Assembly (NCBI GenBank): GCA_018003315.1
Contig: JAGNEJ010000004.1
Coordinates: 1 to 64,000 of the forward strand
From: Verrucomicrobiales bacterium
Lineage (GTDB): Bacteria; Verrucomicrobiota; Verrucomicrobiia; Verrucomicrobiales; V1-33
DNA: 64,000 nucleotides
Direction: 5' to 3'
How positions within the stretch are numbered: position 1 is the stretch's first letter; every line of letters begins with the position of its first letter. The translations under genes and the position numbers were made by a program. The notes beneath the pieces are model-generated. The model ran no database searches. It was not told the DNA's origin and saw nothing but the letters and a program-made list of their open reading frames with translations. Shown one piece after another: positions 23,754 through 44,275 of this stretch.

Positions 23754-24125
23754 ATGAAATTCATCGCATCCATCCTGGCGGTCGTCACGCTGCTTGCCGG
23801 TTTCGCGTTCAGCGAAACGGCAGCGAAGACGAAATACGTTGTCGGCATGACCGGCGTCACCTGAGCAGGCTGCAAAAAGCACGTCCGTGAGGCGTTTGCA
23901 ACACTGAAGGGAGTCGATAAGGAGTCCATCAAGATCGAAGCAGAGGGCGAAAGCCAGAAGGTCACATTCAATTCGACCGATGCATCGATCACCAAGGAAC
24001 AGGCAGTGAAGTCACTCGGCGACCAAGCCGACACCTACATTGTCAAAACCTTCAAAACCGATGGTGGTCCGGCCGGTGACGGCAAGAAAACGGAGGAACC
24101 CAAGAAGGAGAAAAAGTCCGAGTAG
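23754..24125 (+). CDS. Candidate selenoprotein: secreted HMA-fold protein with UxxC motif (in-frame UGA at 23862-23864)
   Basis: The frame starts with a signal peptide (MKFIASILAVVTLLAGFAFS) followed by TKYVVGMTGVT, then UGA at 23862-23864, then AGCKKHVREAFATLKGV and 87 further codons to TAG at 24123-24125 without another stop. The HMA (heavy-metal-associated) fold normally has CxxC at exactly this point (TGVTCAGC), so the UGA replaces the first metal-binding or redox cysteine, giving UxxC. Conservation continues beyond the UGA (VTFNSTDASITKEQAVKSL), so the downstream frame appears to be maintained. A bacterial SECIS-like hairpin follows at once (23865-23900). A selenocysteine-tRNA-like gene occurs at 37382-37475. 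The C-terminal ~20 residues are lysine- and glutamate-rich. The mature product of about 100 residues would lie in the periplasm or outside and might carry a metal or act in redox transfer. The alternative is a nonsense mutation or sequence error. Confidence 0.78.
23865..23900 (+). promoter_or_regulatory. Candidate bacterial SECIS element
   Basis: Directly after the UGA, TGCAAA (23871-23876) pairs with TTTGCA (23895-23900). Inside, CAC (23880-23882) pairs with GTG (23887-23889), leaving the apical loop GTCC (23883-23886). The loop starts 18 nt after the UGA and begins with G then U, as expected of SelB-binding hairpins, which lie close behind the UGA inside the coding region. Confidence 0.6.
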
Positions 24126-30081: not shown

Positions 30082-32505
30082 CTAGGGTCCGCGGTCATTG
30101 GTCAGGTTTTTCCTCCATTGCGCCGCCCGTTTGCCGAGCAGTTCCGCCGGTGCGTCCACCAGGTAGTCGTAGCCCACGGGATTGAACTGCTTCAATTCCT
30201 CCAGGCTGGCGTGCCAGCGTCCGTCGCGTTTGCCGGGAAAGATGGGACGCTGGTGGTTCAGGTCATAGAAGCGCGCCCAGAACGGCCTTCCGTCCGGGCC
30301 GGGCGGAAGCCGGTGGGCGGCAAACCAGGCCAGGGCCGCCTCAATGGCCGCGACCACGGCATGGGGCGGTCTGGGAATTTCCATCAATGCCAGCACCGCA
30401 TCGACACTTTCGCTCCCGCTCAGCGAAGGAGGCTCAAACCCGCGGGCCGCCACCGGTTGCAGGGTGAACGGGTCATACTGGGCACACCAGACCGTCGGCT
30501 TGCCGCCGCATGACACCTGGAGGCGCAGCAGCACCCCGCGGGCAGCGGCCAGGCTGGCCGCGGCCCTTGCCTGGCGGGGCGCGTCCAGCCAGTGGCACTC
30601 CCCCGCCCCGGACGCGGCCAAGGCCAGCAGTTCCATGATGTTGCCCAGCGCGTTGTCGTTCAGCGTGACGGCATCATGGTAGGCACCCTCCAGCGGATAG
30701 CACTGGGGCCAGGCACCATTGGGGAACTGCGCCTGGAAAATGTAATCCAGCCCGCGTTCGATCGCGCTGCGGGTTTGCGCCGCCGGTTCCGCGGCCTCAC
30801 AGCGCAGCAGGAAGCGCAACTGCGCGGTGGTGGAGCGGTTGTCAAAGGTTCCGGCATAGCGGGACGGCCTGCTCTGCGAGGTCCACTGGGTGCCGGCGGG
30901 ACGCGGACCGGCAGCGTAGTCCACCGCCTTTGACCAGCCGCCGGACGGAAGTTGATAGGAAAGCACCGCCGCCTGCAACCGTTTTGCCTCCTCCGAGCGA
31001 AACCATTCCGCCGGCAGCCGGTTGTCGCATTTGAAATCGCGCCCTTCCGGCGCAATGCGCGGCGCGGCCAGCCCCGCTGTCTTCACCTCGTCCGCCAGCG
31101 CCGCATCATTTCTGCGCCTCCAGTCATCGGAACGCTCCAGCCAGTCTTTCCAGAGGTCCCGTTCGGCAGCCGGCAGCGCCGCGAGCCGTCCAGCATACCG
31201 GTCCATGGAATAGGGTGAGGGCGTGGGCATCGGCAGGTGCCTGTCGGCAAATGGAACCATCACCTTCCAATCCTCCAGCAGCACGTCGTGTCCTCCTTCC
31301 CGAATGAAATACCCCAGGCGGCCAGTCAGCGGTTTGCCGCAAGGAGGCCGCTGCGCCGGCAGCGCCACCTTGGCACCCAGCAGTTCAAAAACGGGTGCCG
31401 CCGCGGTCACACTGAGAAATTCACCCTCCGGATCACTCCAGGCGTCGGCTTCCGCGCTGGTGACCAGCAGCGCTCTGGGAGCAGTCAGGGCAAGCAGTTC
31501 ATGCTGGTCCACGGGCAGGGCTGCCTCGTTGTCCGCATAATGCGCAAAGCGTCCGGCGAACCAGTGAGGAAAGCGTTTTGTCAGATCGGCCACCGTTTCG
31601 CCCGCCAGATGCCTGCTCAGAGCAGCTCCTCCGGCACCGGAACCATTGGAAATGACCAGGGCAAAGCGCTCATCCTGCGCGGCGGCCCACAGGGCTGTTT
31701 TGCCAAGTCGGCTGAATCCAATCAAGCCCACGCGCCTGGCATCGATGCGCGGGTTGGTTTCCAGATAGTCCATCGCCCGGCTCAACCCCCACGCCCAGGC
31801 ACCAATGCTCCCCCAGTCGCCGGAACCGGGCTCCGCGGCCAGGCCGCGCACCCCTTCCTTCCAGCGGCCGGGTTCATCGGGTTCAATTTCCCCATAAGCC
31901 GCGGTGGCCACTGCCAGCCCCTGCTCCAGCACGTAGTCGATCTGCCACTGGTGGCGGTGCGCGCCCCGTCCGGCCTCCGTCGGCCGGTGATTTTCCAGCC
32001 GGTTGGAAAAAAGTCCCAGCGCCCAATGCTTCGGCAGCGGCAAGTCAGGATCCTCGATCACCGTATGGTTGCCATCAAAATTCAGCCCCAGCAGGATCGG
32101 CACCGGCCCGGGCACGTCATTGGGCAGGAAAACAAGCAGCTCCATCTGCCGTCCGTCCTCCCGCCCTTCAAACAACACCCCAACCCGCAGCCGGGTGGCC
32201 CGTCCGCCGCGCGTCGAGGGCAGTTCCTCACGCACTGAAAATTTCAAATTCGCCGGTCTGCCCAGCAGGGTGCGACCGTAGATTTCGGATTCAAACAGGC
32301 GCAGCAGTTCGGGTCGCCGCTTGCCCATCCATGCCTCCGGATCCTTCACGGCGCTGCCGTCCTGACAAATCAACGGATTCGGAAAGGGCAGTGCTGCGGT
32401 GCCGGTTCCATCTGTGGCTTCCGCTTGAAAGACTGGGAAAAAGGAACCCATGAACATGGTCAGCAAAGCCGAAGCAGCGGAGGCTGGACACGGGCAGCGG
32501 GTCAT
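30082..32505 (-). CDS. Secreted CE15 glucuronoyl esterase fused to PL10 pectate lyase
   Basis: A signal segment (SALLTMFMGSFFPVFQAEA) precedes two catalytic domains. Residues about 40-440 match carbohydrate-esterase family 15: the nucleophile motif GFSRLGKTALWAAAQDERF near residue 262, SNGSGAGGAAL, ALLVTSAEADAWSDPEGE and the catalytic histidine in REGGHDVLLEDW. Residues about 500-800 match family 10 pectate lyases: FPNGAWPQCYPL, TLNDNALGNIMELL, WCAQYDPFTLQPVAARGFEPPSLSGSESV and FWARFYDLNHQRPIF. Together they could remove ester linkages and cleave pectin-type polygalacturonate. The ATG at 32505 overlaps the stop codon of the upstream repeat-protein gene (ATGA), implying translational coupling. 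The enzyme should act outside the cytoplasm. Confidence 0.9.
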   Translation of the reverse strand: MTRCPCPASAASALLTMFMGSFFPVFQAEATDGTGTAALPFPNPLICQDGSAVKDPEAWMGKRRPELLRLFESEIYGRTLLGRPANLKFSVREELPSTRGGRATRLRVGVLFEGREDGRQMELLVFLPNDVPGPVPILLGLNFDGNHTVIEDPDLPLPKHWALGLFSNRLENHRPTEAGRGAHRHQWQIDYVLEQGLAVATAAYGEIEPDEPGRWKEGVRGLAAEPGSGDWGSIGAWAWGLSRAMDYLETNPRIDARRVGLIGFSRLGKTALWAAAQDERFALVISNGSGAGGAALSRHLAGETVADLTKRFPHWFAGRFAHYADNEAALPVDQHELLALTAPRALLVTSAEADAWSDPEGEFLSVTAAAPVFELLGAKVALPAQRPPCGKPLTGRLGYFIREGGHDVLLEDWKVMVPFADRHLPMPTPSPYSMDRYAGRLAALPAAERDLWKDWLERSDDWRRRNDAALADEVKTAGLAAPRIAPEGRDFKCDNRLPAEWFRSEEAKRLQAAVLSYQLPSGGWSKAVDYAAGPRPAGTQWTSQSRPSRYAGTFDNRSTTAQLRFLLRCEAAEPAAQTRSAIERGLDYIFQAQFPNGAWPQCYPLEGAYHDAVTLNDNALGNIMELLALAASGAGECHWLDAPRQARAAASLAAARGVLLRLQVSCGGKPTVWCAQYDPFTLQPVAARGFEPPSLSGSESVDAVLALMEIPRPPHAVVAAIEAALAWFAAHRLPPGPDGRPFWARFYDLNHQRPIFPGKRDGRWHASLEELKQFNPVGYDYLVDAPAELLGKRAAQWRKNLTNDRGP

Positions 32506-37307: not shown

Positions 37308-37381
37308 CCGTGGTCAGCGCCATGCACCCGGCAGTGTTGTTCCCGATCAACAATCCATTGCGGCAGCTGGGTTTGAAGGAG

Positions 37382-37475
37382 CGGAGAGGCAAGGAATCGA
37401 ACCAAGCCCTGCAAGGAGCACTTGCAGACAACGGTTTTGAAGACCGCGAGGGCCACCAGGCACCCATCACTCTCC
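37382..37475 (-). tRNA. selC: Candidate selenocysteine tRNA, anticodon UCA
   Basis: Read on the minus strand, the sequence folds as a 94-nt tRNA lacking an encoded CCA. The acceptor begins GGAGAG pairing with CTCTCC (37470-37475 with 37383-37388). The anticodon loop is CTTCAAA on a GCGGT/ACCGT stem (anticodon at 37438-37440), the same loop as E. coli selC. The long variable arm has a perfect 7-bp stem (CTGCAAG/CTTGCAG around 37409-37427), as in tRNA-Sec. A D arm with a short loop (TGGT) between GCC and GGC follows the AT spacer. The T loop is TTCGATT. Weaknesses: a U-C mismatch at acceptor position 7 and two U-U mismatches in the T stem, so the molecule is imperfect or the sequence has errors. 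It sits 222 bases downstream of the RND operon's last gene, on the same strand. Confidence 0.75.
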
Positions 37476-37696: not shown

Positions 37697-39211
37697 TCAG
37701 TGGCGACGTCCGAACATGCGCTTCAGCAGGCCGGGTTTGGCAGGCGTTGCGGACGTTGCGTCAGGGTCCGGTGCGGAGGCTGGAATTTCCACTGGCAGGC
37801 TTTGATTCCAGCCACCGCCCAAGGCCTTGACAAGGGCGACGGTGGCGATGAGCCGCTGGCCGCGGATTTGATCCAGCGCGCGTTTGGCGGCCAGGGCAGA
37901 GCGGCTGGCGTCGATCACTTCCAGGTAGGGGGAACTGCCGGCTTCATACCGTTTCATGGCAAAATTCACCGCATCCATCGCTGCTGCCCGCGCTTTCGTT
38001 TGCGAGGCAAACTGCGCGCTCAAATTCCGCAATGCTGCCAACTGGTTTTCCACGTCCGCAAATGCCGTGAGCACGCTCTGCCGGTAAAGTGCCAGGGCTT
38101 CATCGTGCGCGGCGCGCACCGCCTCCAGATTCGCACGGCCCCGGCCTCCGCTGAACAGCGGAAGGCTGACGCTGGGGCCGATGCCCCATTTCTGGCTCTC
38201 CGTCACAAACAGGGAGCTGAGTTCGCCGCTCAAAAAACCGCCATTGCCAATCAGCTTGATGGAGGGGAAAAACCACGCCTTGGCCACGCCGATCTGTGCA
38301 TTGGCAGAGGCGAGCCGGCGCTCGGCCTGGGCCACGTCGGACCGCCGTTCCAGGAGATCGCTCGGCAGTCCGGCGGGAATTTCCGGCGGCGCGCCCTGGC
38401 TGCCTTCCCGGGCCTGCAGATGGAATTCCGGCGCCAGCGTGCCGCTGAGCACGGCAATGGCGTTTTCAAGCTGGTCGCGCTGGGTTTGCAGTCCGGCCAG
38501 CTCGGTCCGGGCGGAAGCCAGCTCCGCTTCGCTCTGGGCCTGCTCCAGTTCGCTTCCCGCACCGGCTTTGACCTTGGCCGTGGCGATGTCCAGGGCCTTG
38601 CCCCGCCACATGACGGCCTCTCTGAGCGTTAGGATTTCCTCATCGACGGCCCGCAGCCGGAAGTAATTCTGCGCCACGTCGGCCTGGAGGCTCAGCAGTA
38701 CGCTCTGCATGGCCGCTGCGGCGGCAGCGGCGTCCGCGCGGGCTCCTTCAAACTGGCGGCGCACTTTTCCCCAGAGGTCGATCTCGTATGTCAGGTCCAG
38801 GGGCACGTCGAAGGACGCCCCCTCATAGCGCACTCCGTTGAGGGGAAACGCGGATGGCATGTTCGCGGAGGTCCCCTGATGCTGCGCGGTGGCCCCTGCG
38901 CCGAGGGCGGGAAAAAACTGGCTGCGGGCAATTCTGGCGGCGGCGCGGGCCTGGTCGAATCGGGCAACGGCAGCCTTCAGTTCCTGGTTGTGCCGGGTGG
39001 CAGAGTCCAGGAGTTGGTTGAGCGTTTTGTCCTTGAAAACGGTCCACCAGGCGCCGCGCGGCAGGGTTTCCAGCGGACGCATCTCGCGCCACTGCGGAGC
39101 CGCCTTGTAGTGCCTGGGTGCGACGGTCTCCGGCTTTTTGAAATCCGGACCGATCTGGGCCGCCGCGGGCACGGAAGCAAGTGTCAGGAGCAGGAGCAGT
39201 GGTGTCTTCAT
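37697..39211 (-). CDS. RND efflux outer-membrane channel (OprM/NodT family)
   Basis: The 504-residue protein is a TolC-like factor of the NodT/OprM group: IGPDFKKPETVAPRHYKA at the N-terminus, LNQLLDSATRHNQELKAAVAR, DLTYEIDLWGKVRRQFEGARA, LPSDLLERRSDVAQAERRLASANAQIGVAKA and YLEVIDASRSALAAKRALDQ. The usual lipobox cysteine before GPDF is absent (SVPAAAQIGPDF), so it is probably a plain signal-peptide protein (MKTPLLLLLTLASVPAAAQ) and not lipidated. The channel would join the RND pump across the outer membrane. Its ATG overlaps the RND gene's stop codon by 4 bases (ATGA). It is the last gene of the TetR-MFP-RND-OMF set. Confidence 0.93.
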   Translation of the reverse strand: MKTPLLLLLTLASVPAAAQIGPDFKKPETVAPRHYKAAPQWREMRPLETLPRGAWWTVFKDKTLNQLLDSATRHNQELKAAVARFDQARAAARIARSQFFPALGAGATAQHQGTSANMPSAFPLNGVRYEGASFDVPLDLTYEIDLWGKVRRQFEGARADAAAAAAAMQSVLLSLQADVAQNYFRLRAVDEEILTLREAVMWRGKALDIATAKVKAGAGSELEQAQSEAELASARTELAGLQTQRDQLENAIAVLSGTLAPEFHLQAREGSQGAPPEIPAGLPSDLLERRSDVAQAERRLASANAQIGVAKAWFFPSIKLIGNGGFLSGELSSLFVTESQKWGIGPSVSLPLFSGGRGRANLEAVRAAHDEALALYRQSVLTAFADVENQLAALRNLSAQFASQTKARAAAMDAVNFAMKRYEAGSSPYLEVIDASRSALAAKRALDQIRGQRLIATVALVKALGGGWNQSLPVEIPASAPDPDATSATPAKPGLLKRMFGRRH

Positions 39212-42200
39212 GGCTGGAGTGGCTGGTCAAGGACAGGTTCTGGCAGGGAAGCAGGGGGAGGATCCGGCTGGACAATTTGCGATTTTTTTCGCCCCAGATT
39301 CATGAGCACGACGTAGAACACCGGCGTGAGGAAGAGCCCGAGGAAGGTGACTCCGATCATGCCGGCAAAAACGGCACTGCCCATGGCGCGGCGCATTTCG
39401 GCTCCGGCTCCGTGGCTGACCACCAGCGGATACACCCCGGCGATGAAGGCGATGCTGGTCATGAGAATGGGGCGCAGGCGCAGGCGGCAGGCTTCCAGCG
39501 CGGCGGCCACGGGACTCATTCCCTCATGCTGCTTTTCCCGTGCGAATTCCACAATGAGGATGGCATTCTTGCAGGCCAGTCCGATGAGAACGATGAACCC
39601 GATCTGGGTGAAAATGTTATTGTCGCCGCCGGCAATGAACACCCCTGCCAGGGCAAAGAGCAGGCAGAGCGGCACGATGAGAATGATCGCCAGCGGGAGG
39701 CGCAGGCTTTCATACTGCGCGGCCAGCACCATGAAGACCAGCAGGATGCACAGCGGATAAATGTAGATGGCGGTGTTGCCGGCGATGACTTTTTGATAGA
39801 CCAGGTCGGTCCAGTCGGCTTCGAATCCCGGCGGCAGCACCTGTTTTGCCAGGGAGGCGATTTTTTCCTCCGCCTGGGCGGAACTGAGCGGCGGCAGCGG
39901 CGCGCCGTTGAAGTCTGCAGCCAGAAAGCCGTTGTAGTGGGTGACCCGGTCCGGGCCGTTGACTTCGCGGACGTTGACCATGGAACCGATGGGTGCCATG
40001 GCACCGGAGGCGTTGCGGACTTTCAGCCGGGTGATGTCGGAAATGTCGTCACGGTATTGCGCTTCCGCCTGCACCACCACTTGATAGGTGCGCCCGAAAC
40101 GGTTGAAATCATTCGCATAGAGCGAGCCAAGATTCACCTGCAGTGCTTCATACAGCGACTGCAATGGCACCCCCTGTGCCTTGGCCTTTTCGCGATCCAC
40201 GCTGGCTTCCAACTGCGGCACGTTCACCGTATATCCGGTGAACGGCTGGGCGAAGGAGCCGGACTGATGCGCGGCTCCCAGCAGGGCCATGGCCGCTCCG
40301 TAGGTGGCTTCGTAGCCCTGGTCGCCCCGGTCGGTGATCATCATTTTGAATCCGCCAATGGTCCCCAGGCCGTTGACCGGAGGCGGCTGGAAGACGGCGA
40401 CGAAGGCTTCCTCAATGGCGCTGAACTTCGCATTGAGCGCACCGGCGATTTCCGCTCCGCTGAGTCCGGGACCGCGGCGATTTTCAAATGCGTCCAGGGA
40501 GACGAACACGATGCCCGCATTCGAACTCATGGAAAATCCCTGAATGGACAAACCGGGAAAGGCCACCGTTCCGGAAACGCCCGGCTGTTTCAGGGCGATG
40601 TCCGTGAGCTTGCGGATGGCGGCCTCGGTGCGGTCGAGCGAGGCGGCATCCGGAAGCTGGGCAAAGGCGACCAGATACTGTTTGTCCTGCGTGGGAACAA
40701 AACCGCCGGGGACCACCTCGAACGCTTTCCAAGTCAGGAAAACCAGCCCGCCGTACACCAGCAGAGCCACCGCCGCCCGCCGGGCGATGACGCGGACCAC
40801 GCGGACATAACGGTCGCCAAACCAGGAAAAAAAGCGGTTGAACGGGCGGAAGATCCAGCCCAGCAGCCGGTCCAGAATCCGGCTCACCACATCTTTTTTG
40901 GCCCGGTGGTCACGCAGTAGCAGCGCGGAAAGCGCCGGGCTGAGCGTCAGGGAATTGAAGGCGGAAATGACCGTGCTGATGGCGATGGTGACGGCAAACT
41001 GCCGGTAGAACTGCCCGGTTAGGCCGCTGATGAATGCCGTGGGAATGAACACGGCGCACAGCACCAGCGCGGTGGCAATGATGGGCCCGGTGACCTCTTT
41101 CATGGCCTGGGCGGTGGCTTCGCGCGGGGTCAGCCCCAGGGCGATGTTTCGTTCCACGTTTTCCACCACGACGATGGCGTCGTCCACGACGATGCCGATG
41201 GCCAGCACCAGGCCGAAGAGGGAGAGGTTGTTGATGGAAAATCCCAGCAGGTGCATGACCGCGAACGTGCCGACCAGTGACACCGGCACCGCGGCCAGCG
41301 GAATGATCGACGCCCGCCAGGTCTGCAAAAACAGCACCACCACCAGCACCACCAGGCCGATCGCTTCCAGCAGGGTGGCCACCACGGCATTGATCGATTT
41401 TTTCACGAAGACCGTCGGGTCATAGACCACGTCGAAGTCGATCCCTTCCGGAAATTTCGTTTTCAGCTCCGCCATCCGCTGCCGCACGGACTGGGAAAGC
41501 GCCAACGCATTGGACCCGGGAAGCTGGAAGATGGGAATGCCCACGGCTTCCCGGTTGTTCAAAAGACTGCGCAGCGCGTATTCGCCGGACCCCAGCTCCA
41601 CGCGGGCCACCTCTGAAAGCGTGGTGATCTCCCCGTGCGACCCGGTTTTGACGATGATGGCGCCGAATTCCTCCTCGGTCACCAGGCGCCCCTTGGCATT
41701 GATGACCAGCTCGAACGGCACGGTGCCGGAAACCGGCTGCTGGCCGATGGCACCGGCGGCCACCTGCACGTTTTGTTCGCGGATGGCATTGACGACATCC
41801 CCGGCGGACACTCCCATGGACGCGGCCTTGTCAGGATCCAGCCAGATCCGCATGGCGTAGTCGCCGCCCCCAAACAACTGCACCGAGCCCACGCCAGGCA
41901 GTCTGGCCAGCTCGTCCTTCACGTTGAGGTTCGCAAAATTCCGCAGATAGAGCGCGTCGTAGCGCCCGTTGGGTGAAAACAAATGCACCACCATGGTCAG
42001 GTCTGGCGAGGATTTCACCGTGGTCACGCCGAAGCGTCGCACTTCCTCCGGCAGCTTCGGCAGCGCCTGGGAAACGCGGTTCTGCACCTGCACCTGGGCC
42101 ATGTCGATGTTCGTTCCGACCTTGAACGTCACCGTCAGGGTCATCGTCCCGTTGGAGGTGCTCTGCGAGGACATGTAGAGCATGTTTTCCACCCCGTTGA

Positions 42201-42414
42201 TGATCTGTTCCAACGGCGAGGCAACGGTTTCCGCAATCGTTTTTGGATTGGCACCGGGATAAGTGGCGGTGACGATGACCGTGGGCGGGGTGACTTCCGG
42301 ATACTCGCTCACCGGCAGACGCCAGAGCGAAATGGCGCCCAGCAGGAAAATGAGCATGGACAGCACCCCGGCGAAAATGGGCCGGGTGATGAAAAAATGG
42401 GAAAGCGTCTTCAC
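39208..42414 (-). CDS. RND multidrug efflux permease (AcrB/HAE1 family)
   Basis: At 1068 residues, with the AcrB-like first segment MKTLSHFFITRPIFAGVLSML, VVTATYPGANPKTIAETVASPLEQIINGVENMLYMSS, and transmembrane repeats including FSINNLSLFGLVLAIGIVVDDAIVVVENVER (the proton-relay Asp pair in VDDAIV), it is a hydrophobe/amphiphile efflux-1 pump. The central segments LPGVGSVQLFGGGDYAMRIWLDPDKAA and NDFNRFGRTYQVVVQAEAQYRDD are typical of MexF/AcrB-type pumps. It sits in the inner membrane and exports drugs or other amphiphiles with proton influx. It lies 29 bases after the membrane-fusion protein gene and overlaps the OMF gene. Confidence 0.96.
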   Translation of the reverse strand: MKTLSHFFITRPIFAGVLSMLIFLLGAISLWRLPVSEYPEVTPPTVIVTATYPGANPKTIAETVASPLEQIINGVENMLYMSSQSTSNGTMTLTVTFKVGTNIDMAQVQVQNRVSQALPKLPEEVRRFGVTTVKSSPDLTMVVHLFSPNGRYDALYLRNFANLNVKDELARLPGVGSVQLFGGGDYAMRIWLDPDKAASMGVSAGDVVNAIREQNVQVAAGAIGQQPVSGTVPFELVINAKGRLVTEEEFGAIIVKTGSHGEITTLSEVARVELGSGEYALRSLLNNREAVGIPIFQLPGSNALALSQSVRQRMAELKTKFPEGIDFDVVYDPTVFVKKSINAVVATLLEAIGLVVLVVVLFLQTWRASIIPLAAVPVSLVGTFAVMHLLGFSINNLSLFGLVLAIGIVVDDAIVVVENVERNIALGLTPREATAQAMKEVTGPIIATALVLCAVFIPTAFISGLTGQFYRQFAVTIAISTVISAFNSLTLSPALSALLLRDHRAKKDVVSRILDRLLGWIFRPFNRFFSWFGDRYVRVVRVIARRAAVALLVYGGLVFLTWKAFEVVPGGFVPTQDKQYLVAFAQLPDAASLDRTEAAIRKLTDIALKQPGVSGTVAFPGLSIQGFSMSSNAGIVFVSLDAFENRRGPGLSGAEIAGALNAKFSAIEEAFVAVFQPPPVNGLGTIGGFKMMITDRGDQGYEATYGAAMALLGAAHQSGSFAQPFTGYTVNVPQLEASVDREKAKAQGVPLQSLYEALQVNLGSLYANDFNRFGRTYQVVVQAEAQYRDDISDITRLKVRNASGAMAPIGSMVNVREVNGPDRVTHYNGFLAADFNGAPLPPLSSAQAEEKIASLAKQVLPPGFEADWTDLVYQKVIAGNTAIYIYPLCILLVFMVLAAQYESLRLPLAIILIVPLCLLFALAGVFIAGGDNNIFTQIGFIVLIGLACKNAILIVEFAREKQHEGMSPVAAALEACRLRLRPILMTSIAFIAGVYPLVVSHGAGAEMRRAMGSAVFAGMIGVTFLGLFLTPVFYVVLMNLGRKKSQIVQPDPPPASLPEPVLDQPLQP

Positions 42415-42443
42415 GGATTCAGGGAATGCAGCCGATCATGGAG

Positions 42444-43607
42444 TTAGGATTTGGCAGCCGCGGCGGCTGCCTTCGGCGCGGCGGGTTCCGCCGGAGTTAC
42501 GGGCTGCCCGGGCTGGTGCACCCTGGCACCGCCATTGACGATGATTTTCTCCCCGGCCTTCAACCCCTCGCGAATGATGCGTCGGCCATCAATGATCGGC
42601 CCCAGCACCACCGAGCGGTACTGCGCCAGGCTCTTTTCATCGACCATCATCACATAGGAGCGTCCGAGATCCGTGCGCACCGCCGTCGGATCAATGGCGG
42701 GTGCGGAATACTGCCCGGTCATCGGAAGCCGAATGCGGGCGAACAAGCCGGGTGTCAGCAATCCGTCGGCGTTGGAAAACTCCGCCCGCACTGCCATGCT
42801 GCCGGTGGCGGGGTCGAGCCGGTTGTCGAGGGACTCCACCCAGCCGCGGTGCGGAAAGCCGTCTTCCCCGCTGAGCTGGAGTTCCACCGGGACGCGCCCC
42901 TTGTCGTCCTTCAGGGTCTTCCCAGCCCTGACCAGCGCCTGGTATTTCAGCAGGGAACTTTCATCGACCGCGGCATAGACATGCATCGGATCCACCGACA
43001 CCAGGGTGGTCAACTGCGTGCTTTGACTCACCGTGTTGCCGGTAGTGACCAGGGCGCGGCTCACCCGTCCGGCAATGGGTGCGGTGACTTCGCAGTAACC
43101 GAGATCAATTTCCGCGGAACGCAGTGCGGCCCGGGCTGCGGCCAGCGCGGCTTGGGCCTGCAGGTGCAGGCTTTCCCGGCCTTCCGACTGCTCCGGGGAG
43201 ATGGCCTTGGCCGCAAGCAGGGCCGGCGCACGGTCGAATTCCCGCTGGGCGGAAAACGCCGCCGCTTCCGCACGCTTCAGCTCGCTGCGCGCCACCTCCG
43301 TCTTGGCCAGCAGGGGTTCCTTGTCGAGTACAAACAACACCGCATCTTTGGCCACGATGCTGCCCGCCTGGAACCGCACCTCCTGCACCATTCCGGCAAT
43401 CCGCGGGCGCAGTTCAACGGTTTCCACCGCGGCCACCCGTCCGGTGAATTCCTGCCATTCCACCACCGGCTTTTCCTCCACCACATTCATGGTGACGGCT
43501 GCCGGCATCATCGGCGCTCCCCCTCCCCCCTGCGAGCGATGGCAGGCGGTAAGCAGAACTGCAAACGAAGCGGCAGTGGCAAGGACGGGAAGCGCAGAGA
43601 GTTTCAT
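42444..43607 (-). CDS. RND efflux periplasmic adaptor lipoprotein (membrane fusion protein)
   Basis: The N-terminus is a lipoprotein signal (MKLSALPVLATAASFAVLLTACHRS, lipobox LTAC at residues about 19-22). After it come the AcrA/MexE elements: EFTGRVAAVETVELRPRIAGMVQEV, RAGSIVAKDAVLFVLD-type barrel-sandwich residues, a helical hairpin rich in alanine, ITAPIAGRVSRALV-like DLGYCEVTAPIAGRVS, and LFARIRLPMTG. The poly-Ala-Lys tail is low complexity. The adaptor links the inner-membrane pump with the outer-membrane channel. The start at 43607 gives the lipobox; the earlier in-frame ATG at 43673 lies within the TetR gene. A putative TetR operator lies just upstream at 43639-43652. Confidence 0.93.
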   Translation of the reverse strand: MKLSALPVLATAASFAVLLTACHRSQGGGGAPMMPAAVTMNVVEEKPVVEWQEFTGRVAAVETVELRPRIAGMVQEVRFQAGSIVAKDAVLFVLDKEPLLAKTEVARSELKRAEAAAFSAQREFDRAPALLAAKAISPEQSEGRESLHLQAQAALAAARAALRSAEIDLGYCEVTAPIAGRVSRALVTTGNTVSQSTQLTTLVSVDPMHVYAAVDESSLLKYQALVRAGKTLKDDKGRVPVELQLSGEDGFPHRGWVESLDNRLDPATGSMAVRAEFSNADGLLTPGLFARIRLPMTGQYSAPAIDPTAVRTDLGRSYVMMVDEKSLAQYRSVVLGPIIDGRRIIREGLKAGEKIIVNGGARVHQPGQPVTPAEPAAPKAAAAAAKS

Positions 43608-43638
43608 GGCAGGAGCAAACGAAGTTACGAAGATTAAA

Positions 43639-43652
43639 GTTGACTGGTTGGT
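43639..43652 (-). promoter_or_regulatory. Putative TetR operator upstream of the RND adaptor gene
   Basis: On the minus strand the sequence is ACCAACCAGTCAAC. It matches ACCGACCGGTCAAA at 44319-44332, upstream of the tetR gene, at 11 of 14 positions. It lies 32 bases before the start codon of the adaptor gene, where a repressor could block transcription. Confidence 0.5.
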
Positions 43653-43669
43653 AGCATTTTCGACAAAAA

Positions 43670-44275
43670 TCAAGCCACCGCCACCTGGACTCCGAGAATT
43701 TCCAGGATGCCGGATTCGATTTCACAAATCGGCTGCAGCGTGTTGAAAATGCGGGCCCGGGTATGGGTGCCTTCGATGTAGTCCTGCAAAATCCGCGCCT
43801 TCCTTGCAGGGGCCGGAGCATCGATTTCCCCGGCGGCATGGGCATCCCGGATGGCGCTTTCCAGATAGCGCAATTGAGTGTCCAGCAGCTCCTCCACTTT
43901 GGCGCGGAGTTTTGACTCGCGGGTGCCGATTTCACTGCCCAAGGAAAACAGCGGACAGCCGCAGACGCACCCGGCTTCCTGGAGCCGTTTTTCCTGAAAT
44001 TCCAAGTCCCAGCGCGCCATCCGGCACAGTCGCTCCAGCGGTGGAACCGCAGGCGAAAAAATCGCGTCCATCTTCGGTTTGGCCTCGTGCCACATCGCTT
44101 CGAGCGCCGCAATCGCCAAATCCTCCTTGGAAACAAAATGGTGGTAAAAGCTTCCCTTTTTCACCGCGCTCCCCTCACAGATGCGGTCCACGCCCGTGGC
44201 ATGATAGCTGGTCCGCCAGATCAGGTCGGCGGCGGTGTGGATCAGGCGGGCTTTGGTGTCAGAATGGCGGGGCAT
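43670..44275 (-). CDS. TetR/AcrR-family transcriptional regulator of the efflux operon
   Basis: The 201-residue protein starts with a TetR helix-turn-helix: DTKARLIHTAADLIWRTSYHATGVDRICEGSAVKKGSFYHHFVSKEDLAIAAL. The remainder is the variable ligand domain with a Cys pair (QEAGCVCGCPLFSLGSE), typical of the YxaF/AcuR-like group that senses small molecules. It is encoded at the head of the efflux operon on the same strand, 62 bases before the adaptor gene, so it probably represses the pump and itself. Two candidate operators flank it (43639-43652 and 44319-44332). The start MPRHSDTKARL at 44275 precedes the HTH. Confidence 0.9.
   Translation of the reverse strand: MPRHSDTKARLIHTAADLIWRTSYHATGVDRICEGSAVKKGSFYHHFVSKEDLAIAALEAMWHEAKPKMDAIFSPAVPPLERLCRMARWDLEFQEKRLQEAGCVCGCPLFSLGSEIGTRESKLRAKVEELLDTQLRYLESAIRDAHAAGEIDAPAPARKARILQDYIEGTHTRARIFNTLQPICEIESGILEILGVQVAVA

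Follow-up and report, generated by a model that had tools for sequence, protein, structure and literature searches.

A Verrucomicrobiales selenocysteine tRNA gene with a tandem U-U opposition in its T stem, best described by a 6/6 acceptor/T branch

The bacterial route to selenocysteine (Sec) starts with serylation of tRNA-Sec by SerRS, continues with the conversion of Ser to Sec by SelA using selenophosphate from SelD, and ends with delivery by SelB to a UGA codon accompanied by a SECIS element (PMC13188914). The window analyzed here, a 64-kb stretch of a Verrucomicrobiales genome, carries on its minus strand a sequence that the original prediction read as a tRNA-Sec-like gene with two U-U mismatches in the T stem and one U-C mismatch in the acceptor, and hence as either divergent, decaying or slightly misread. 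Is this gene damaged, or does it represent a normal tRNA-Sec of its lineage, and which UGA codons could it serve?

Structure and surroundings of the gene

ARAGORN finds one tRNA in the window, a tRNA-SeC(tca) at 37381–37475 (minus strand), and the Rfam model RF01852 matches 37383–37475 (minus strand) over its full length (model positions 1–91) with a score of 52.2 bits and an E-value of 1.2e-07, the gathering score being 47 bits. The extent of this match, together with the discriminator G73, places selC at exactly 37382–37475, 94 nucleotides through G73, which confirms the predicted tRNA-Sec with anticodon UCA. The 3′ CCA is not encoded and the next three bases are CTC.

The acceptor stem is formed by GGAGAG (37470–37475) and CUCUCC (37383–37388), six base pairs that are 100% paired in 53 distinct homologues, with G73 at 37382. 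G73 is invariant in alignment A1, for which the homologue filter itself required it. The D arm (37449–37465, GGG-U-GCC / UGGU / GGC-CCU) has 6 bp, one bulged U and a four-nucleotide loop; 96.5% of its alignment cells are paired over the 53 distinct rows, and four pairs show changes on both sides. The anticodon arm (37431–37447), delimited by ARAGORN and the alignment, presents the loop CUUCAAA (37436–37442) with the anticodon UCA at 37438–37440. The variable arm (37409–37427) consists of CUGCAAG paired with CUUGCAG over 7 bp around the loop UGCUC, with compensatory changes at all seven pairs. The T arm (37389–37407, GCUUGG-UUCGAUU-CCUUGC) has a 6-bp stem broken by a tandem U-U opposition, in which 37404 and 37405 face 37392 and 37391, that is, tRNA positions 51-63 and 50-64; twelve nucleotides separate the T loop from G73. 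The original prediction had correctly read from the sequence the CTTCAAA loop, the variable arm of 7 bp and both U-U mismatches of the T stem. Thermodynamic folding of the gene gives a z-score of −1.84, which by itself is weak evidence; the case is carried by the covariance-model score and the comparative data.

An RND efflux operon lies upstream of selC and a MocA-like gene is convergent with it; relatives do not keep this arrangement as a block. Consisting of HlyD, AcrB-type and outer-membrane components (37697–43673, minus strand), the operon shares the strand of selC and ends about 220 bp before it. The region upstream of selC shows no promoter-like site, and promoter and terminator scans around the gene were uninformative. 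Elsewhere in the window, 30082–32505 (minus strand) encodes an 807-residue protein that combines glucuronyl-esterase-like and pectic acid lyase domains in one chain (Pfam PF22244 and PF09492).

Selenocysteine machinery of the source genome

The source genome is a 5.09-Mb draft of 96.5% completeness, in which the selC of the window is the single RF01852 match above the cut-off; the seven next matches examined proved to be ordinary tRNAs for Ser, Leu, Cys, Gly and Trp. A second selC candidate of 46.7 bits, located beside selD, was rejected as a tRNA-Ser(tga), which lies a few hundred bases from selD (L017 1501–2535, contig C124 of G000). The genes selA (497 bits), selB (287 bits) and selD (374 bits) all score above their curated cut-offs, and SelB has the GTPase, SelB β-barrel and SelB winged-helix domains. 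They are located on contigs other than that of selC, which adjoins neither selA nor selB. In addition, the reading frame of selD contains a UGA, in the motif CAGUASKL, so that synthesis of SelD itself requires the organism to read UGA as Sec. The gene thus combines an RF01852 score above the cut-off, UCA, G73 and a 6-bp D stem with a four-nucleotide loop, in a genome that has selA, selB and selD.

The T-stem mismatches recur through the order

Homologues of selC were obtained from searches of 189 genomes of the order and 387 genomes of the phylum. Sixty distinct genes share 12 nucleotides between T loop and discriminator, the length by which the set is defined. They were filtered on anticodon spacing, T-loop motif, G73 and a paired outer acceptor, and the T stem was not used, except that eight of the 60 came only from a pattern scan and were picked for the U-U tandem. 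Comparison with the selC genes of related genomes shows that the mismatches recur through the order: among the 52 distinct homologues unselected for the T stem, both U-U oppositions are present in 40 and the one at 50-64 in 48, and the oppositions at 50-64 and 51-63 are found in six of its families. A T arm identical to that of the window (GGCUUGG..CCUUGCC) occurs in another genus of the same family (L050). A pattern scan for the T-stem arrangement, run over 84,980 prokaryote species, returned 45 stretches, all from Verrucomicrobiota and including a cultured relative, Rubritalea profundi SAORIC-165; it would miss distant look-alikes because the pattern also fixed the anticodon stem.

These data bear directly on the possibility that the gene is decaying or a pseudogene, or that its T arm contains a sequencing error. 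Such a reading could appeal to the RF01852 score, 52.2 bits against up to 68.7 bits in other members of the order, and to the three mismatches counted under a 7/5 model. The mismatches are, however, order-wide, recurring at 50-64 and 51-63 in six families, and the very same T arm is found in L050, which excludes decay or misreading as their cause; moreover, the helices are intact except at the U-U layers, and the client UGA and all the sel genes are retained. We therefore regard damage as extremely improbable, and this part of the original prediction is not upheld.

The U-U tandem is not strictly required, since the T stem is partly or fully paired at these layers in a few relatives. Two genes from another family of the class (L125 and L132, family f10) have all six T-stem layers paired, L125 with Watson–Crick pairs throughout. 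In another genome (L060, contig C73 of G074), two near-identical selC genes lie about 700 bp apart, at 102–195 and 804–897, with selA 5–6 kb away.

The acceptor/T branch is best described as 6/6

In all 60 homologues the 3′ side of the acceptor/T branch comprises 12 nucleotides instead of 13. The 6/6, 7/5 and 8/4 models of this branch were compared on alignment A1 (53 distinct rows). Positions 7 and 66 pair in none of the 53 rows, where 66 is always C and base 7 is U, A or C, while 48-66 is G-C in 52 of them. The layer 49-65 is paired in 53 of 53 (G-C in 48, C-G in 3, A-U in 2). Its C-G form is seen in families f1 (the source genome and L050) and f2 (L061), and its A-U form in another f2 genus (L062) and in f10 (L125); this spread over several families points to more than one origin of the changes. 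For 48-66, the sixth pair of the T stem, support comes from conservation and not from covariation, as the pair hardly varies. Unguided RNAalifold also ends the acceptor at 6 bp. The 8/4 and 7/5 models fit less well, as 8-65, which 8/4 needs, is unpaired in six of the 53 rows and 7-66 in all of them, and the canonical 8/5 form with its 13-bp branch disagrees both with the 12-nucleotide 3′ side and with the unpaired 7-66. On these sequence comparisons, a 6-bp acceptor combined with a 6-bp T stem, in which 50-64 and 51-63 are usually U-U, is the best description of the branch and fits better than 8/5 or 7/5. The acceptor U-C mismatch of the original prediction accordingly exists only under a 7-bp acceptor; base 7 pairs with that C in no homologue, and it is the G on the T side that does.

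The closest competitor is a functional 12-bp tRNA-Sec of the 7/5 type known from earlier work, in which 7-66 would be a tolerated mismatch and no separate 6/6 form would exist. Both models have the same total number of layers, 12-bp 7/5 tRNA-Secs with acceptor irregularities have been described from several phyla (PMC5330540), and the invariance of the sixth T pair means that covariation does not prove 48-66. The 12-layer branch of that kind is indeed found here, but its 7-bp acceptor is not, with base 7 paired in 0 of 53 rows, while in 52 of them base 48 places a G opposite that C. Elsewhere in the phylum, sequence reading gives selC genes of either the usual 13-nucleotide type (e.g. L117, L120 and L133) or a true 7/5 type (L134 and L137). 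These true 7/5 genes are paired at 12 of 12 layers, and their SelA proteins belong to another clade. We consider the 7/5 interpretation unlikely, while still giving it some weight. That 37382–37475 (minus strand) is a functional selC, that its mismatches are not damage and that it encodes the 6/6 tRNA-Sec of its lineage is, on the comparative evidence, very probable.

Linkage and co-inheritance with SelA

Among the 50 genomes of the order with the 12-nucleotide selC type, 49 have selA (Fisher p = 2.5e-33, uncorrected for phylogeny); in 11 further genomes of the order selA is present and selC was not detected. In the SelA tree, in which two order members without a detected selC were left unlabelled, the SelA proteins of genomes with the 12-nucleotide 6/6 tRNA form one clade with 100/100 support, including those of f10 and f39 from outside the order, and the SelA partners of the 13-nucleotide and 7/5 tRNAs lie on the opposite side of that 100/100 branch. 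SelA was not found in the stretches around the selC of G495, G508, G381 and G504. The SelA that accompanies the fully paired tRNA of f10 is nested within the clade, next to the SelA of f39, a family with a single U-U in its T stem; full pairing of the T stem may therefore be secondary. These relationships suggest that selA and selC have been inherited, and sometimes transferred, as a pair. No selA, selC or HMA homologue was detected in G028, the other sampled genome of the genus, which makes the Sec trait patchy even inside a genus.

Such properties could be consistent with a distinct, previously undescribed class of tRNA-Sec, with a 6/6 branch and U-U oppositions that are nearly fixed at 50-64 and usual at 51-63, which has coevolved with its own SelA clade and in which the non-canonical T stem takes over from the missing thirteenth layer as the mark recognized by SelA and SelB and rejected by EF-Tu. 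We put this forward tentatively, as a possibility that falls somewhat short of being probable.

A small HMA-domain protein as predicted client

The original prediction held that the tRNA explains how UGA could be decoded in an HMA gene of the window. This gene (23754–24125, plus strand) encodes a 123-residue protein with a Pfam HMA match of 31.7 bits; its in-frame TGA (23862–23864, plus strand) is predicted to encode Sec at residue 37, in the motif GMTGVTUAGCK. The N-terminus resembles a signal peptide, the protein starting with MKFIASILAVVTLLAGFAFSETAAKTKYVVGMTGVTUAGCKKHV... Homologues are present in 108 of the 189 genomes of the order. In the 89 genomes compared by their best homologue, the site is occupied by TGA in 41 of the 42 that have selA and by TGC or TGT in all 47 that lack it (Fisher p = 1e-24, uncorrected for phylogeny). 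The lone exception among the 42 (L173, from G020) has both selA and selC, and its best homologue carries Cys (TGT) at the Sec site.

Sixteen nucleotides after the UGA, a SECIS-like hairpin with a 5-bp stem (ACGUC-CGUGA-GGCGU) occupies 23881–23895 (plus strand). Two of its pairs switch together from C-G to U-A, and the GU of the loop is invariant in 40 of 40 distinct sequences; as judged from these features, the hairpin appears in line with known bacterial SECIS elements. The HMA gene lies 2.5–4.6 kb from selC on the same contig in 13 relatives, 13.3 kb from it in the source genome and 77 kb in G012, a member of the same family.

The UGA/Cys alternation, the hairpin and the proximity in relatives sustain the proposed link between the HMA gene and selC, as do the presence of selA, selB, a UGA-containing selD and one selC in the genome. 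By these comparisons, the HMA gene is a predicted selenoprotein gene and a client of the tRNA-Sec of the window. The protein scores 29.3 bits against NF041115, the UxxU metal-binding (seleno)protein model, below its curated cut-off of 95. MerP-like and metal-binding selenoproteins are already known, so the client is a new member of an established kind.

The same sites speak to whether the tRNA could instead be an allo-tRNA or a selC*-like UGA suppressor charged with Ser or Cys and not with Sec. Allo-tRNAs share with this gene the UCA anticodon, the long variable arm and the 12-layer branch (PMC6267555, PMC7609411). Their branch, though, is 8/4 or 9/3, neither of which is seen here, where 49-65 covaries within the T stem; the gene has an invariant G73 and a long D stem with a four-nucleotide loop, its presence tracks that of selA, and the UGA sites show both alternation with Cys and SECIS-like hairpins. 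A suppressor of this sort is therefore very improbable, and a tRNA-Sec with a 6/6 branch is the reading that we retain.

Discussion

Comparison of sequences establishes the conservation of the gene, its pairing pattern, the linkage to selA and the UGA/Cys alternation in the client. Following the established pathway, SerRS would serylate this tRNA-Sec, the SelA of the genome would convert Ser-tRNA to Sec-tRNA with selenophosphate from SelD, and SelB would bring Sec-tRNA to UGA codons with a SECIS hairpin downstream, among them the codons in selD and in the HMA gene. The tRNA-Sec of this lineage would use an acceptor/T branch of 12 layers and not 13, made of six acceptor and six T-stem pairs. 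In E. coli, Sec read-through is abolished when the acceptor stem is shortened, and the strength of binding to EF-Tu is tuned by the T-stem layers 49-65, 50-64 and 51-63 (PMC6267555); the U-U layers coincide with two of these three positions. One may speculate that, with the extra branch length gone, it is the U-U tandem that prevents EF-Tu from binding the tRNA.

The gene shares with the 8/5 type of E. coli selC (RF01852) the UCA anticodon, G73, the 6-bp D stem with its four-nucleotide loop, the long variable arm and the company of selA, selB and selD, but differs from it by 12 instead of 13 nucleotides on the 3′ side, a 6-bp acceptor, the tandem U-U in the T stem and the D-stem bulge. It resembles the 7/5 tRNA-Secs (the Cloacimonetes type and 47 sequences; Santesmasses et al. 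2017, PMC5330540) in its 12-layer branch and functional sel genes, and a D-stem bulge has also been described in the 7/5 tRNA-Secs of Clostridiales (PMC5330540). The 7/5 type, however, has a 7-bp, often bulged acceptor (PMC5330540), whereas here 7-66 is unpaired and the G-C pair belongs to the T stem instead. The main text of PMC5330540 does not mention Verrucomicrobia. A functional precedent is provided by Aeromonas salmonicida, whose natural SelA works on a 12-bp tRNA-Sec; this is another lineage, and the available text of the same source (PMC6267555) does not mention a tandem U-U. The allo-tRNAs and selC* (8/4 and 9/3) are alike in their long variable arm, 12-layer branch and, in some, UCA, but unlike in their branch arrangement, and the gene described here differs further by its SelA partnership and UGA-Sec clients. 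Our literature search found no description of a Verrucomicrobiota tRNA-Sec or of a 6/6 arrangement, of which an earlier mention is possible.

A practical caution follows for annotation, as genuine selC genes can be mislabelled by scanners built on 13 layers or by readers who take mismatches in the T stem for decay. The SelA/tRNA pair is possibly orthogonal and as such of interest for selenoprotein engineering. Finally, a whole lineage that appears to have shed branch length, is mismatched at two of the three EF-Tu-tuning positions and has a separate SelA branch would allow the identity rules of SelA, SelB and EF-Tu to be tested through the exchange of natural components.
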